DNA from: an uncultured Bacilli bacterium
Lineage (GTDB): Bacteria > Bacillota_I > Bacilli_A > RF39 > UBA660
DNA length: 64,000 nt
Reading direction: 5' to 3'
Assembly: GCA_944359725.1 (NCBI GenBank)
Contig: CALVSY010000005.1
Coordinates: 1 to 64,000 of the forward strand
Part shown: piece after piece, positions 19,174 through 25,175 of the stretch
How positions within the stretch are numbered: the stretch's first letter is position 1
Layout: each line of letters opens with the position of its first letter
Made by a program: the position numbers and the translations under genes
The notes under the pieces: model-generated
What the model saw: only the letters and a program-made list of their open reading frames with translations
Told to the model about the DNA's origin: nothing
Databases searched by the model: none

Positions 19174-21162
<1,989 letters not shown>

Positions 21163-21230
21163 TTAATTATATCATAATTAAGCTTGTTTTTAGGAAATTT
21201 ATAAGACAAATTAATATTAAATCTATTAAA

Positions 21231-21262
21231 AAATGTGTAATTAATCGCAATTACACACTTTA
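21231..21262 (-). terminator. Terminator of the RiPP operon
   Basis: GTGTAATT and AATTACAC pair around a six-base loop, followed by a T-rich stretch on the minus strand. It lies 10 bases past the PEP-utilising enzyme stop codon. Confidence 0.7.
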
Positions 21263-21271
21263 TTAATTTTA

Positions 21272-23014
21272 TTATTTAGTTTTCTTTTTCGTCTTTAGTT
21301 TTTTTACAACTCCATTATTACCATTAACTTCAATATAATCCATATTACTTATTTTATTTATACTATCATATCCAAGTCCAGTTATACATGGTATTTCAAG
21401 TTCTCTTGATATTATAGCAGAATGAGATAAAAAACCACCTTCAGCAGTTATAATTGCACTACTATTTACCATAACTGGTACCCAATCAGGATCCGTAAAA
21501 TCCGCTAATAAAATATCCCCTTTTTCAAATCCACTTTCATCTATTTTAGATGCGTCTTCTATATAAACTGGTTTACCTTTAGCAACACCACTAGATGCAG
21601 GTATACCAATAAATTCATCTTCTGTCTTTATAATTTTAACATCATTATTTTTAAATTTTACAGTTACCGGTCTAAATTGTACAAATAATAAATTACCATT
21701 AACTACGCACCATTCAAAATCAGCAATAGTGTTTAATTTGTTTTGATATTCAATGCATTTTTCACCAACTACATCATTATTTACTGTTATCGGGTTATTA
21801 ACCTTAGTGTTCCAATCCTCATAATTAGGAGTAACCTTACCGGAGACAAGTTTTTCACCATTTCCTTTAACCCATTCCAAGTGTCCGGTATTTTTACTAT
21901 TGCCTAGCCAAACACCAGCATATTTTGGTTCAATAAAACGCTGTAACACAACAGACATATATGGCTTTTTAGTGTTAAATTTTTCTACATACGAATTTAC
22001 TCTATTAGTATAAGTAGAATCATATACTTCACTAATTGCAGAATTAATATCTTTCTTATCTTGATTTAACTTTGTAATAAACAAACCGGCGAAAGACTGA
22101 TTTTTATTATCTTCAACCGTAGCCGAACTCCTAACCGAATACTTATAATTTGGCAATTCATTAATATAATTAACATACTTTTTTTCTTGAACTGATTTCA
22201 CAGGAACAATAAATGTTTCAGGAATATCTATACCATTATATGACAATTTCGCTAATCCTAGATTTTTACCACCGACAATACAAGCTAGATCATCAATAAT
22301 ACCATTATCAAAAAATTTATATAGTTGTTCTATTTTTATAATTGGTGAATCATTAAGTAAACAAATTCCTAATAATGATCTTCCTTTAATACTTGATAAA
22401 TACGGATATTTTTCCTTAACATACTTTTCAAAATTATTTTTAGCATCATCATGTTTTTTAATTAATTCATTATTATGATACAAATGCTCTATATCCTGCC
22501 ACTTTTTCATCAATAAATATAATTTTATTTCTTTCGTGTTAATGTCAACATTATTTAAATTCTTGTTTTTTTTAAATTTTGTTAATTCTGATGGTTTTAT
22601 TTTGTCAACTTCTTTTATAACATCTAAATATTTTTCATTATATTTATCTTTGAATAATTTAAGTATAGCATCCGTCAAAACAGATCCTTCAATTATTGTT
22701 TCTAAAAAACCATAGTACGCATACGAATACCTATATAAATACCATTTAATAACTGGATCTTTTTCTTTATCAGCCTCTTGCATAATCATAACAGATTTAT
22801 TTTTAACTTCTTTTATTATCCGTTCTATTTTTGAATAATCAAGTGCATTAACATCTAGTTCATCAACATATTTAAGCAAATCCTTACACAATTTATCATT
22901 TATCATGATATCGTAAGATAAAGACCATATCCATTGTGGATCCGTTATAAACGTTTTTAATTCATTTAAATCATTTTTATACTCATCATAGCTGACTTCT
23001 ATAAATTTTCTCAT
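21272..23014 (-). CDS. PEP-utilising/ATP-grasp phosphotransferase in the RiPP operon
   Basis: 580 residues. Residues 1-230 are a largely helical region of unknown family. Residues about 240-455 form a PPDK-type ATP-binding domain with VGGKNLGLAKL and SVRSSATVED (293-302) and a closing FVQFRPVTVK. Residues about 468-572 form the swivelling His domain with TAEGGFLSHSAIISRE, His531 being the phospho-carrier. Rifampin phosphotransferase and PEP synthase share these two domains, but here an unknown helical domain precedes them. The gene overlaps the radical SAM gene by 29 bases, so it belongs to the RiPP pathway. It may phosphorylate the peptide or a small substrate, or give immunity; the substrate is not known. 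Confidence 0.8.
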   Translation of the reverse strand: MRKFIEVSYDEYKNDLNELKTFITDPQWIWSLSYDIMINDKLCKDLLKYVDELDVNALDYSKIERIIKEVKNKSVMIMQEADKEKDPVIKWYLYRYSYAYYGFLETIIEGSVLTDAILKLFKDKYNEKYLDVIKEVDKIKPSELTKFKKNKNLNNVDINTKEIKLYLLMKKWQDIEHLYHNNELIKKHDDAKNNFEKYVKEKYPYLSSIKGRSLLGICLLNDSPIIKIEQLYKFFDNGIIDDLACIVGGKNLGLAKLSYNGIDIPETFIVPVKSVQEKKYVNYINELPNYKYSVRSSATVEDNKNQSFAGLFITKLNQDKKDINSAISEVYDSTYTNRVNSYVEKFNTKKPYMSVVLQRFIEPKYAGVWLGNSKNTGHLEWVKGNGEKLVSGKVTPNYEDWNTKVNNPITVNNDVVGEKCIEYQNKLNTIADFEWCVVNGNLLFVQFRPVTVKFKNNDVKIIKTEDEFIGIPASSGVAKGKPVYIEDASKIDESGFEKGDILLADFTDPDWVPVMVNSSAIITAEGGFLSHSAIISRELEIPCITGLGYDSINKISNMDYIEVNGNNGVVKKLKTKKKTK

Positions 23015-24371
23015 ATTCTTTTTCTCCTATTAATATTTGGCATCTTTCATCACCATTTTTTATAATCGAAATATTATTTCTTAATTTTAGTGCTGGACAT
23101 CCACCATTACAAAAATCATAAAATCTACATTTTAAACATTTTTTATCTTCACACTTATTACTTCTTAATTCGTTTAAATAATCAGCAGAATCCCATATTT
23201 CTTTTATATCTTCATTAAAAGCATTTCTATAATTAAACTCATCATTTTTAAATAAAACGCATGGTAATACACTTCCATCAGGCATGACTTCTATTTTTGT
23301 ATTTCCAGCTTCACAACCATATTTTATTTTTTCAAAATCTGTTTCAACAAAAATTGATTTATCATCTTCGTAAGCTGAATACAATAAACACCCTTGAACT
23401 TGAAAATTTATTTTATTCTGATAATTCTTAGAATAGATATATTTAAATATTTTTTCTCTTACTTTTCGCATTTCTAAAATAGAATGCTTTTTAAGTTCAG
23501 AATTATTAGTATCTACATATAAATCTAAATAAAAATCTTTTATACCATTTTTAATACAAAAATCAATTAATTTGAAAATTTCCTCATCACTTTGATTTGT
23601 ATAAACAGTATTAATTCTAGGAACTTTGTTTTTAGATAAAAATGTGTTTATCGTTTTTAAAGCCCTATTTGGAACAATTCCCATTAAAAATTTATTCAAA
23701 TCCTTATTTAAACTTTCTAAAGAAACAGTCGGCGTTATATAATTGCTATTACAAATTATATTCATAGTTGAATCTTTTATATTTATTGCATTTGTAGTTA
23801 TTGTGGTTTTAATGTGATTTTTTTCTAAAAATTCCAATACTTTATCAATGTTTTCATATAATGTAGGTTCCCCACCTAGAATAGATATATAAATAATTCC
23901 ATAATCTTTCATTTTCTTAATTAAATTAATCCAACTTTTATAATTCCTACTTTTAGAATAAATCTTTCTTTTTTCTTTAAAAAAACAAAATTTGCAATTT
24001 AATTGACAACTAGAATTTAAATATAAGCTAGCCTGTAAAGGAAACGAAAGAAAATTCCTGTTTAAAACTTTATTTATCGATTTGAAAACATCTTTTTTAA
24101 CCCTATAATAATCTAATTTTTTATTTTTTTTATTAGTAGGAATTAATATATTTTCTCTAACAAATTCATCTAAACAAGGATTAAAAGACTTATTAAAATA
24201 TTTAGACGTAAAATCAATTGAATCATTAGAACTATATCCTTTTTGTATACATTTTAAATATGTAGTATTCTCAAAGTCTAATTCAAATTCTGCCGAATCA
24301 ACAATCGAGTGAAGTAATCCACCAAAAAATTCATATCTCAATATGTAGTTTTCATTAAAATTATAATCCAT
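22986..24371 (-). CDS. Radical SAM/SPASM peptide maturase, streptide (StrB/KwcM) type
   Basis: 461 residues from ATG 24371, preceded by GGAGGT; a longer in-frame start at 24428 overlaps the precursor and lacks a ribosome site. Residues 1-80 look like a PqqD-type peptide-recognition domain. The radical SAM core has Cys122, Cys126 and Cys129 in SCQLNCKFC and GGEPT at 166-170. The SPASM region holds Cys353, Cys371, Cys407, Cys412, Cys415, Cys421, Cys425 and Cys444, enough for two extra Fe-S clusters. The upstream precursor carries KGDGW, so this enzyme probably forms the Lys-to-Trp carbon-carbon link known from streptide. The family is clear; the exact product is inference. Confidence 0.85.
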   Translation of the reverse strand: MDYNFNENYILRYEFFGGLLHSIVDSAEFELDFENTTYLKCIQKGYSSNDSIDFTSKYFNKSFNPCLDEFVRENILIPTNKKNKKLDYYRVKKDVFKSINKVLNRNFLSFPLQASLYLNSSCQLNCKFCFFKEKRKIYSKSRNYKSWINLIKKMKDYGIIYISILGGEPTLYENIDKVLEFLEKNHIKTTITTNAINIKDSTMNIICNSNYITPTVSLESLNKDLNKFLMGIVPNRALKTINTFLSKNKVPRINTVYTNQSDEEIFKLIDFCIKNGIKDFYLDLYVDTNNSELKKHSILEMRKVREKIFKYIYSKNYQNKINFQVQGCLLYSAYEDDKSIFVETDFEKIKYGCEAGNTKIEVMPDGSVLPCVLFKNDEFNYRNAFNEDIKEIWDSADYLNELRSNKCEDKKCLKCRFYDFCNGGCPALKLRNNISIIKNGDERCQILIGEKEYEKIYRSQL

Positions 24372-24389
24372 TCTACCTCCATTTTCAAA

Positions 24390-24413
24390 AAAAGTGAAAT
24401 TATTTTCACTTTT
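24390..24413 (-). terminator. Internal terminator hairpin between RiPP precursor and maturase
   Basis: On the minus strand AAAAGTGAAA-ATAA-TTTCACTTTT is followed by more T, all within the 47 bases between the precursor stop and the maturase start. Such partial terminators commonly make precursor message more abundant than enzyme message. Confidence 0.7.
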
Positions 24414-24418
24414 ATTTT

Positions 24419-24487
24419 CTACTTCCAACCATCACCTTTAGAAAAAAAGCAAGAGTCTAAAATTGATTTTTTAGTTACTTTTCTCAT
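24419..24487 (-). CDS. Streptide-like RiPP precursor peptide (KxxxW type)
   Basis: A 22-residue reading frame, too short for routine gene calls, with AAGGAGG six bases before its ATG. The leader is basic (MRKVTKKS) and the end is CFFSKGDGWK. KGDGW is the motif of streptide precursors (StrA/KwcA), in which a radical SAM enzyme joins the Lys side chain to the Trp ring; here these would be Lys17 and Trp21. The next gene is a radical SAM/SPASM enzyme. Unlike the known StrA, the motif occurs once and only one residue follows it. A Cys at position 13 is a further possible modification site. Confidence 0.85.
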   Translation of the reverse strand: MRKVTKKSILDSCFFSKGDGWK

Positions 24488-24553
24488 AATAACCTCCTTT
24501 TTTATTTAGATTTTTTATGAGATATCTATAAACTCAAAAAAATTTATACATTA

Positions 24554-24617
24554 AAAAAGGTGGCAAAACATATAAATATTTGCCACTAAGAAAATACTGC
24601 CACCTTTTTGGCAAATG
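24554..24617 (-). promoter_or_regulatory. Alternative hairpins upstream of the RiPP precursor
   Basis: On the minus strand AAAAAGGTGGCA (24609-24598) can pair with TGCCACCTTTTT (24565-24554). The middle segment GTGGCAAA (24586-24579) competes for the same 3' arm and would form a terminator-like hairpin (GTGGCAAA/TTTTGCCAC then CTTTTTT). A preceding ATTTGCCA can pair with the middle segment. This is either the terminator of the BRO-N gene or an attenuator for the RiPP operon; no clear promoter lies between it and the precursor. Confidence 0.5.
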
Positions 24618-24628
24618 CAACACTAAAT

Positions 24629-25114
24629 TTACTTAACAATTTTAAAATACAATATTTCGATAATATTGTCAATATTTTTTACATATATATTATAAAAATT
24701 ATCAGTAATTTTCCGTATAAAGCCATGAATAGCTTTTTCAGGATCAAACTCCTCATCTACTCTTTCCTTTCCTAAAGATGCAAGCCACATCTTAAATGGT
24801 TCTGCCTTTGGACTTGGTACTGACTCTATTATTCTAAATATACCTTTCGTATCTAAAACATCTGTTAAGTAATACTTTCCATCTTTTGAAGACCTTAGTT
24901 TCAGTTGTCCCACATTATGGGACAACTCACTACCCTCCTCATTTAATTTAGTTTTTAATGCGTTCCAATATTTCCTTGCCCTAGGACTTTCGGTCAAAAC
25001 CTTAATTACATCACCCACACTAAAATAATAATCTTCTTTGCTACTGTCCCACACGCTTCTTATTTCATTACCTTGAAATAAATTTGTTATTGTTTTTAGT
25101 TTATCTTCTTTCAT
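24629..25114 (-). CDS. Truncated BRO-N domain protein
   Basis: 161 residues. The BRO family N-terminal domain (about 8-115) is clear: IRSVWDSSKEDYYFSVGDV, WNALKTKLNEEGSEL, KYYLTDVLDT and PKAEPFKMWLA. After DEEFDPEKAI the sequence leaves the usual pattern and ends in a low-complexity tail (NIIEILYFKIVK), where homologues normally continue for another 100 or so residues. BRO proteins are DNA-binding proteins of phages and mobile elements. This copy has probably been cut short by deletion and may be a remnant. Confidence 0.75.
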   Translation of the reverse strand: MKEDKLKTITNLFQGNEIRSVWDSSKEDYYFSVGDVIKVLTESPRARKYWNALKTKLNEEGSELSHNVGQLKLRSSKDGKYYLTDVLDTKGIFRIIESVPSPKAEPFKMWLASLGKERVDEEFDPEKAIHGFIRKITDNFYNIYVKNIDNIIEILYFKIVK

Positions 25115-25140
25115 TATGATTTCCTTTCTTATTTGTTTTA

Positions 25141-25175
25141 AAAAAACTAAGTAGCTTTAATTTACTACTTAGTTT
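25141..25175 (-). terminator. recA terminator
   Basis: AAACTAAGTAG and CTACTTAGTTT form an 11-bp stem with a T tract on the minus strand, overlapping the recA stop. Confidence 0.8.

Follow-up and report, generated by a model that had tools for sequence, protein, structure and literature searches.

A divergent streptide-type precursor and maturase pair in an uncultured Bacilli genome

The closest described systems are the streptide (KxxxW) loci of streptococci: Streptococcus thermophilus StrA-StrB, S. agalactiae AgaB and S. suis SuiA-SuiB (PDB 5v1q/5v1t). In S. agalactiae, S. suis and a Streptococcus sp., KGDGW precursors of 21–22 aa lie just upstream of the enzyme, and those of S. agalactiae and S. 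suis end just after the motif. By likeness to the known streptide operon, we read the streptococcal loci as having an Rgg-like regulator before the pair and an MFS-like transporter after it. Other radical SAM enzymes, WgkB (tryglysin) and DarE (darobactin), also form a Lys-Trp carbon-carbon bond.

The stretch of DNA analyzed here (the window, 64,000 nt) carries a precursor with the same KGDGW core, ending in the same way just after the motif. As in the streptide systems, the precursor lies directly upstream of a SPASM enzyme of about 440–460 aa with the same cysteine set. The window locus differs from the streptide loci in having neither the upstream Rgg-like regulator nor the downstream MFS exporter; a terminator-like leader and a PEP-synthase-like gene are found instead. 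These features, together with Gln326 in place of SuiB Glu319 and the presence or absence of the pair between sister species, go beyond the initial annotation. We observed the sequence anatomy of the pair, its family placement, its substrate motif and its presence or absence across genomes directly, and conclude that the pair is real, well placed and a divergent variant of streptide-type RiPPs.

The KGDGW precursor and its maturase

The precursor gene (MRKVTKKSILDSCFFSKGDGWK; 24419–24487, minus strand) consists of 22 codons and a stop, running from an ATG at 24487 to a TAG at 24419–24421, and places Lys17 and Trp21 in the motif. Its ribosome-binding site, AGGAGG (24493–24498, minus strand), stands five bases 5' of the ATG; both site and spacing are like those of streptococci. 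A gap of 47 nt (24372–24418) separates the stop from the ATG of the radical SAM gene at 24371. We thus reproduced the coordinates of the initial annotation, which had described a 22-codon frame with a strong ribosome site 47 bases before a radical SAM/SPASM gene. A hairpin between the two genes (AAAAGTGAAA..TTTCACTTTT; 24390–24413, minus strand, z −2.25) is possibly a partial terminator or an mRNA stabiliser.

From base composition, 0.0006 occurrences of KGDGW are expected per 64 kb on both strands. The 1.21-Mb genome has two copies of the codon pattern of the motif (AARGGNGAYGGNTGG), one in the precursor and the other on contig C29, inside what by sequence and position looks like an unrelated YceD/DUF177 gene. 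The only model matched by the precursor was TIGR04079 (18.3 bits, cut-off 35, E 0.002), and its only PDB match, weak at E 0.34, was the SuiA 22-mer co-crystallised with SuiB. The gap-free alignment of this weak match (kSILDScffsKGDGW / ekVLESsamaKGDGW) sets ILDSC opposite VLESS, with two identities (L, S) and two like residues; a possible leader element I/V-L-D/E-S (LESS in SuiA/StrA) would thus precede the motif at the same distance as in the streptide systems. The precursor start differs (MRKVTKK here, MSKELEK there), and Cys-Phe-Phe precedes the motif here. The initial annotation had called the peptide an otherwise novel, very short precursor with a single C-terminal motif, a description that no longer stands: the S. 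agalactiae precursor (MSKELEKVLESSSMAKGDGWK) has 21 aa and likewise ends in KGDGWK. The S. thermophilus enzyme uses that 21-residue peptide efficiently as a substrate (PMC5491770), and a precursor of nearly equal length with the same ending is therefore of ordinary size.

The maturase gene (22986–24371, minus strand) encodes 461 aa from an ATG at 24371 that has its own GGAGG. A 480-aa version starting at TTG 24428 overlaps the precursor and is unlikely, given the ribosome site of the ATG. The protein has Pfam Radical_SAM and SPASM domains. Its CxxxCxxC motif is formed by C122/C126/C129 and the SAM motif GGEP is intact; the SPASM cysteines (353/371/412/415/421/425 and 444) are all invariant in the alignment, and the SPASM pattern CX12GX4C..CX2CX5CX3C..C is complete. 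All ten cysteines expected for three clusters, those of CxxxCxxC included, were found and are invariant.

TIGR04080, the KxxxW maturase model, came out on top of 68 NCBIfam models with a full-length match (296.6 bits over residues 4–445, against 80.4 bits for the runner-up), a score that lies under its curated cut-off of 500 bits. The WgkB model NF050035 gave only 49.9 bits (cut-off 650), and the precursor contains no W-G-K core. SuiB (5v1q) was the best PDB relative (phmmer E 5.5e-75 over residues 5–428); the next solved relative followed at E 7e-11. Identity to the streptide enzymes is 35–36%. In a tree that took in further SPASM enzymes, among them ones from the same genome family, the maturase grouped with streptococcal KxxxW enzymes (support 99/97) and with these plus the Macrococcoides canis enzyme (100/98), apart from the SPASM enzymes of its own family of genomes. 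Every KxxxW relative in this clade has a KGDGW precursor upstream. The best full-length model, the best solved relative and the monophyly with KGDGW-bearing enzymes bear out the initial annotation of a streptide/KxxxW-type pair, and its proposed comparison with StrB-type models thus came out in favor of the KxxxW clade, not of the lineage's own SPASM enzymes. Its expectation that the small frame is conserved upstream of homologous maturases holds across bacterial families, in streptococci and Macrococcoides, but cannot be applied to the host lineage, where no sampled relative has the pair. A structure prediction for the maturase (4 sequences; mean pLDDT 44) was too poor for use.

We also considered an enzyme of genome G023 (locus L005, 28% identical) as a second KxxxW locus, and rejected it: it has no nearby KGDGW frame and falls outside the clade. 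On M. canis plasmid pB8 (NZ_CP091282; L035:2740–2835), we noted an unannotated 31-aa KGDGW precursor (MSIKLSIKKVDLGMVMCCNAFAKGDGWSDSL). This locus, too, is non-streptococcal and has a Cys before the motif, and its enzyme is 33% identical to the window maturase; it differs in its gene order (precursor, MFS, enzyme) and in keeping the Glu at position 319.

That position is where the window maturase departs from the streptide enzymes. In a gap-free stretch (NFATEGC in SuiB, NFQVQGC here), SuiB Glu319 (S. suis numbering) stands opposite Gln326 (codon CAA), which adjoins the invariant G327-C328; the other four enzymes aligned, Macrococcoides and streptococci included, all have Glu. The maturase keeps 85 of the 130 columns that are invariant in those four. 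According to PMC8124187, Glu319 of SuiB was put forward as the active-site base, and biochemical work later confirmed that it is crucial for turnover. Because Gln326 takes its place, deprotonation after ring attack is the most doubtful step of the KxxxW explanation. Either another residue must act as the base, or turnover must be slow, or the reaction must end differently. We do not file the pair as a full KxxxW member, since the catalytic base is replaced and both scores fall under their curated cut-offs; Gln326 is the main reason against filing the maturase as a plain one.

The overlapping PEP-synthase-like gene

The start of a PEP-synthase-like gene (21272–23014, minus strand; 580 aa) overlaps the radical SAM gene by 29 nt. 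Its product comprises an N-terminal part that matches no family, a PPDK_N ATP-binding domain and a PEP-utiliser phospho-histidine domain; the PEP/pyruvate-binding barrel domain had no match in the protein. Across 11 aligned sequences, the ATP-grasp and phospho-histidine domains have invariant catalytic residues, His531 included, and among the NCBIfam relatives are the ligases PigC/RedH and rifamycin phosphotransferase. A structure prediction of the enzyme alone (mean pLDDT 36) was too poor for use.

Relatives with the same N-terminal part were found in other genomes (n = 10, 31–39% identical). Six of them (L165, L167, L168, L170, L171, L172) lie beside SPASM or B12-type radical SAM genes. These loci also have YcaO, aminotransferase or PqqD genes, in a mix that varies between them, and a short frame resembling a precursor (e.g., ..LAELGGNYCSDTC), which ends in CSDxC in five of the six. 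The other four (L150, L166, L169, L173) stand alone. This distribution suggests that the role of the family is RiPP-related. In the window the enzyme is an operon partner that may participate in the RiPP pathway, but the sister species G009 keeps the gene (98% identical) without precursor and maturase.

The clusters around the PEP-synthase-like enzyme at L165, L167, L168, L171 and L172 (genomes G182, G338, G044, G023 and G256) are conserved. They comprise a class I/II aminotransferase, a PhpK/BchE-like radical SAM enzyme, SPASM radical SAM enzymes, of which most clusters have two, and a short frame that resembles a precursor and ends in CSDxC (e.g., L172:4030–4155, MKKIVAAVKKIFSRKKVINLFATNNDTTLAELGGNYCSDTC); a YcaO was seen at L165 and L168. 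The CSDxC peptides tested matched no named NCBIfam model, and these clusters look like an undescribed RiPP class. At L170:7011–11634 (G224), PqqD comes after the PEP-synthase-like gene, and then a 35-aa frame (MMKKYEKPLLFKLDKSLGGMASSFSKSYCYGGESK), a SPASM-like stretch and a B12-type radical SAM gene; this is likely another RiPP cluster.

The cassette, its insertion site and its leader

A segment of the window (23006–24724) is missing from G009, which has 577 bp in its place, with the 3' end of a BRO gene and a DinD-like frame. In the window, the cassette cuts off the 3' end of this BRO-N gene (24629–25114, minus strand; 186 aa in G009), which belongs to the host locus and lies outside the RiPP system. 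The BRO gene is followed by a DinD-like frame (so named by sequence resemblance only) in the more distant G005 as well as in G009, and the PEP-synthase-like gene comes next in both G009 and the window genome (G000). Since the BRO-DinD arrangement broken by the cassette is common to G009 and G005, a recent gain is indicated rather than a loss. On the most parsimonious reading of the sequences, promoter, leader, precursor and maturase would have been gained recently as a unit, at the variable recA-ligA interval and ahead of a resident PEP-synthase-like gene. Both flanks match G009 at about 96–97%, so that contamination or mis-assembly is unlikely and the locus is chromosomal. The recA-ligA interval (window 21150–25165) is a variable insertion site in the genus: the two genes are directly adjacent in some species, and elsewhere the interval holds BRO/DinD-like, nucleoside-enzyme-like or toxin-antitoxin-like genes.

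Searched with TIGR04080 at strict limits (E 1e-30 to 1e-40), overlapping samples of 386 genomes of the family, 395 of the class and 392 of the phylum yielded G000 only, and the maturase protein found no close relative in 17 congeners. The pair is absent from all sampled relatives and present in one genome. Three scans of viral contigs gave generic SPASM matches only (19–36%) and phages no KxxxW relative, whereas plasmids gave one true relative; among the matches listed in a scan of genome contigs were at least four streptococcal KxxxW loci, together with generic SPASM enzymes. A non-streptococcal host, as first proposed, is supported. The sole Rgg match in the window was a chance one of 24 residues (E 0.66), the genes upstream being BRO and recA, and a StrC-like MFS exporter had none; exporter, protease and Rgg are all missing from the precursor/maturase locus. 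The genome search found just one StrC-like protein, MFS transporter-like and 26% identical to the streptide transporter of S. agalactiae, whose gene has an in-frame stop in this assembly; it lies on another contig (C3, L178:1430–2630), far from the RiPP locus.

Upstream of the precursor, a promoter-like TTGACA-17-TATTTT (24644–24672, minus strand) is followed by a structured leader of about 85 nt (24553–24640, minus strand) that ends in a terminator-like hairpin (GTGGCAAA..TTTTGCCACCTTTTTT). A covariance model of the leader gave seven matches in 6 of 18 genus genomes and none in 128 other genomes searched; Rfam has no family for it. The six further copies, spread over five more congeners, are 76–79% identical and have the promoter-like sequence in the same place. 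The leader loci (L226–L232) are genus-specific, with 0–2 copies per genome and different operons downstream: copies precede genes for a HAD/HMGL-like enzyme, two GTP cyclohydrolase-type enzymes, a SPASM enzyme, a guanylate kinase-like and methyltransferase pair and a short-chain dehydrogenase, and one lies upstream of a RelA/SpoT-type gene. Folding z was −4.3 for the G003 copy and −1.65 for the copy at 24553–24640. Covariation is slight (1 of 21 pairs), and the fold is therefore mostly a thermodynamic prediction. The leader may act by attenuation or antitermination, and we considered LoaP/NusG-type antitermination a candidate role. In G009, an operon for a FolE2-type GTP cyclohydrolase and a GTP cyclohydrolase II-like protein (L221:2278–4699) stands behind the shared leader and possibly serves small-molecule biosynthesis in this reduced genome.

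The KxxxW explanation and its alternatives

The locus is probably a minimal KxxxW (streptide-type) RiPP operon that works like a KxxxW system. Given the TIGR04080 and SuiB matches, the place in the KxxxW clade and the KGDGW precursors beside its relatives, a Lys17-Trp21 cross-link is the best prediction. We infer the reaction and the product, as well as its export and use: the precursor would be made with its N-terminal part as leader, the SPASM radical SAM enzyme would abstract a hydrogen from the C-beta of Lys17, and this carbon would be joined to the ring of Trp21 (at C7 in streptide) with loss of 2 H. Against this explanation we counted the scores under the curated cut-offs, Gln326, the lack of exporter, protease and Rgg, and the occurrence in one genome.

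It is highly improbable that the small frame with its motif arose by chance next to one of the lineage's ordinary SPASM enzymes. The precursor alone does score weakly (18 bits), but the motif is expected only 3e-7 times by base composition in one frame of 200 nt, the ribosome site and spacing match those of streptococci, and the enzyme falls independently into the KxxxW clade rather than with the lineage's SPASM enzymes. An enzyme that binds the precursor but does different chemistry, or is inactive, would account for a Gln in a gap-free stretch beside invariant residues, at the position of a base that PMC8124187 gives as crucial for turnover. We consider this unlikely: the iron-sulfur ligands, GGEP and the precursor motif have all been kept, no stop interrupts the 461 codons, and a dead enzyme would in time lose the invariant columns that are kept here. 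Moreover, as a single-base difference seen in one assembled genome, Gln326 could be a rare allele.

Somewhat less doubtful, though still only tentative, is a hybrid RiPP, in which the cross-linked peptide would be further processed by the PEP-synthase-like enzyme through ATP-driven phosphorylation or ligation. The 29-nt overlap, the catalytic residues invariant in 11 sequences, the six of ten relatives in radical SAM clusters with precursor-like frames (five ending CSDxC) and the kinship with PigC/RedH and rifamycin phosphotransferase argue for it. However, G009 keeps the gene without the pair, so some use of it is independent of the pair, four relatives stand alone, and the overlap may merely mark the landing point of the cassette. 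A fuller form of this idea, which we hold a shade more cautiously, is that the Lys-Trp peptide would be made without SuiB's base and then modified by a RiPP-tailoring family of small-genome Bacilli, namely the so far undescribed PEP-synthase-like family of the YcaO/double-SPASM clusters with CSDxC precursors.

With the KxxxW explanation preferred, the locus extends the range of streptide-type chemistry from lactic acid bacteria and a plasmid of Macrococcoides to an uncultured Bacilli lineage with a 1.2-Mb genome. It supplies a natural enzyme with a glutamine for SuiB's proposed base, which makes the role of that base testable on a natural variant, and its partner gene points to a PEP-synthase-like family that recurs beside RiPP-type genes within this genome family.
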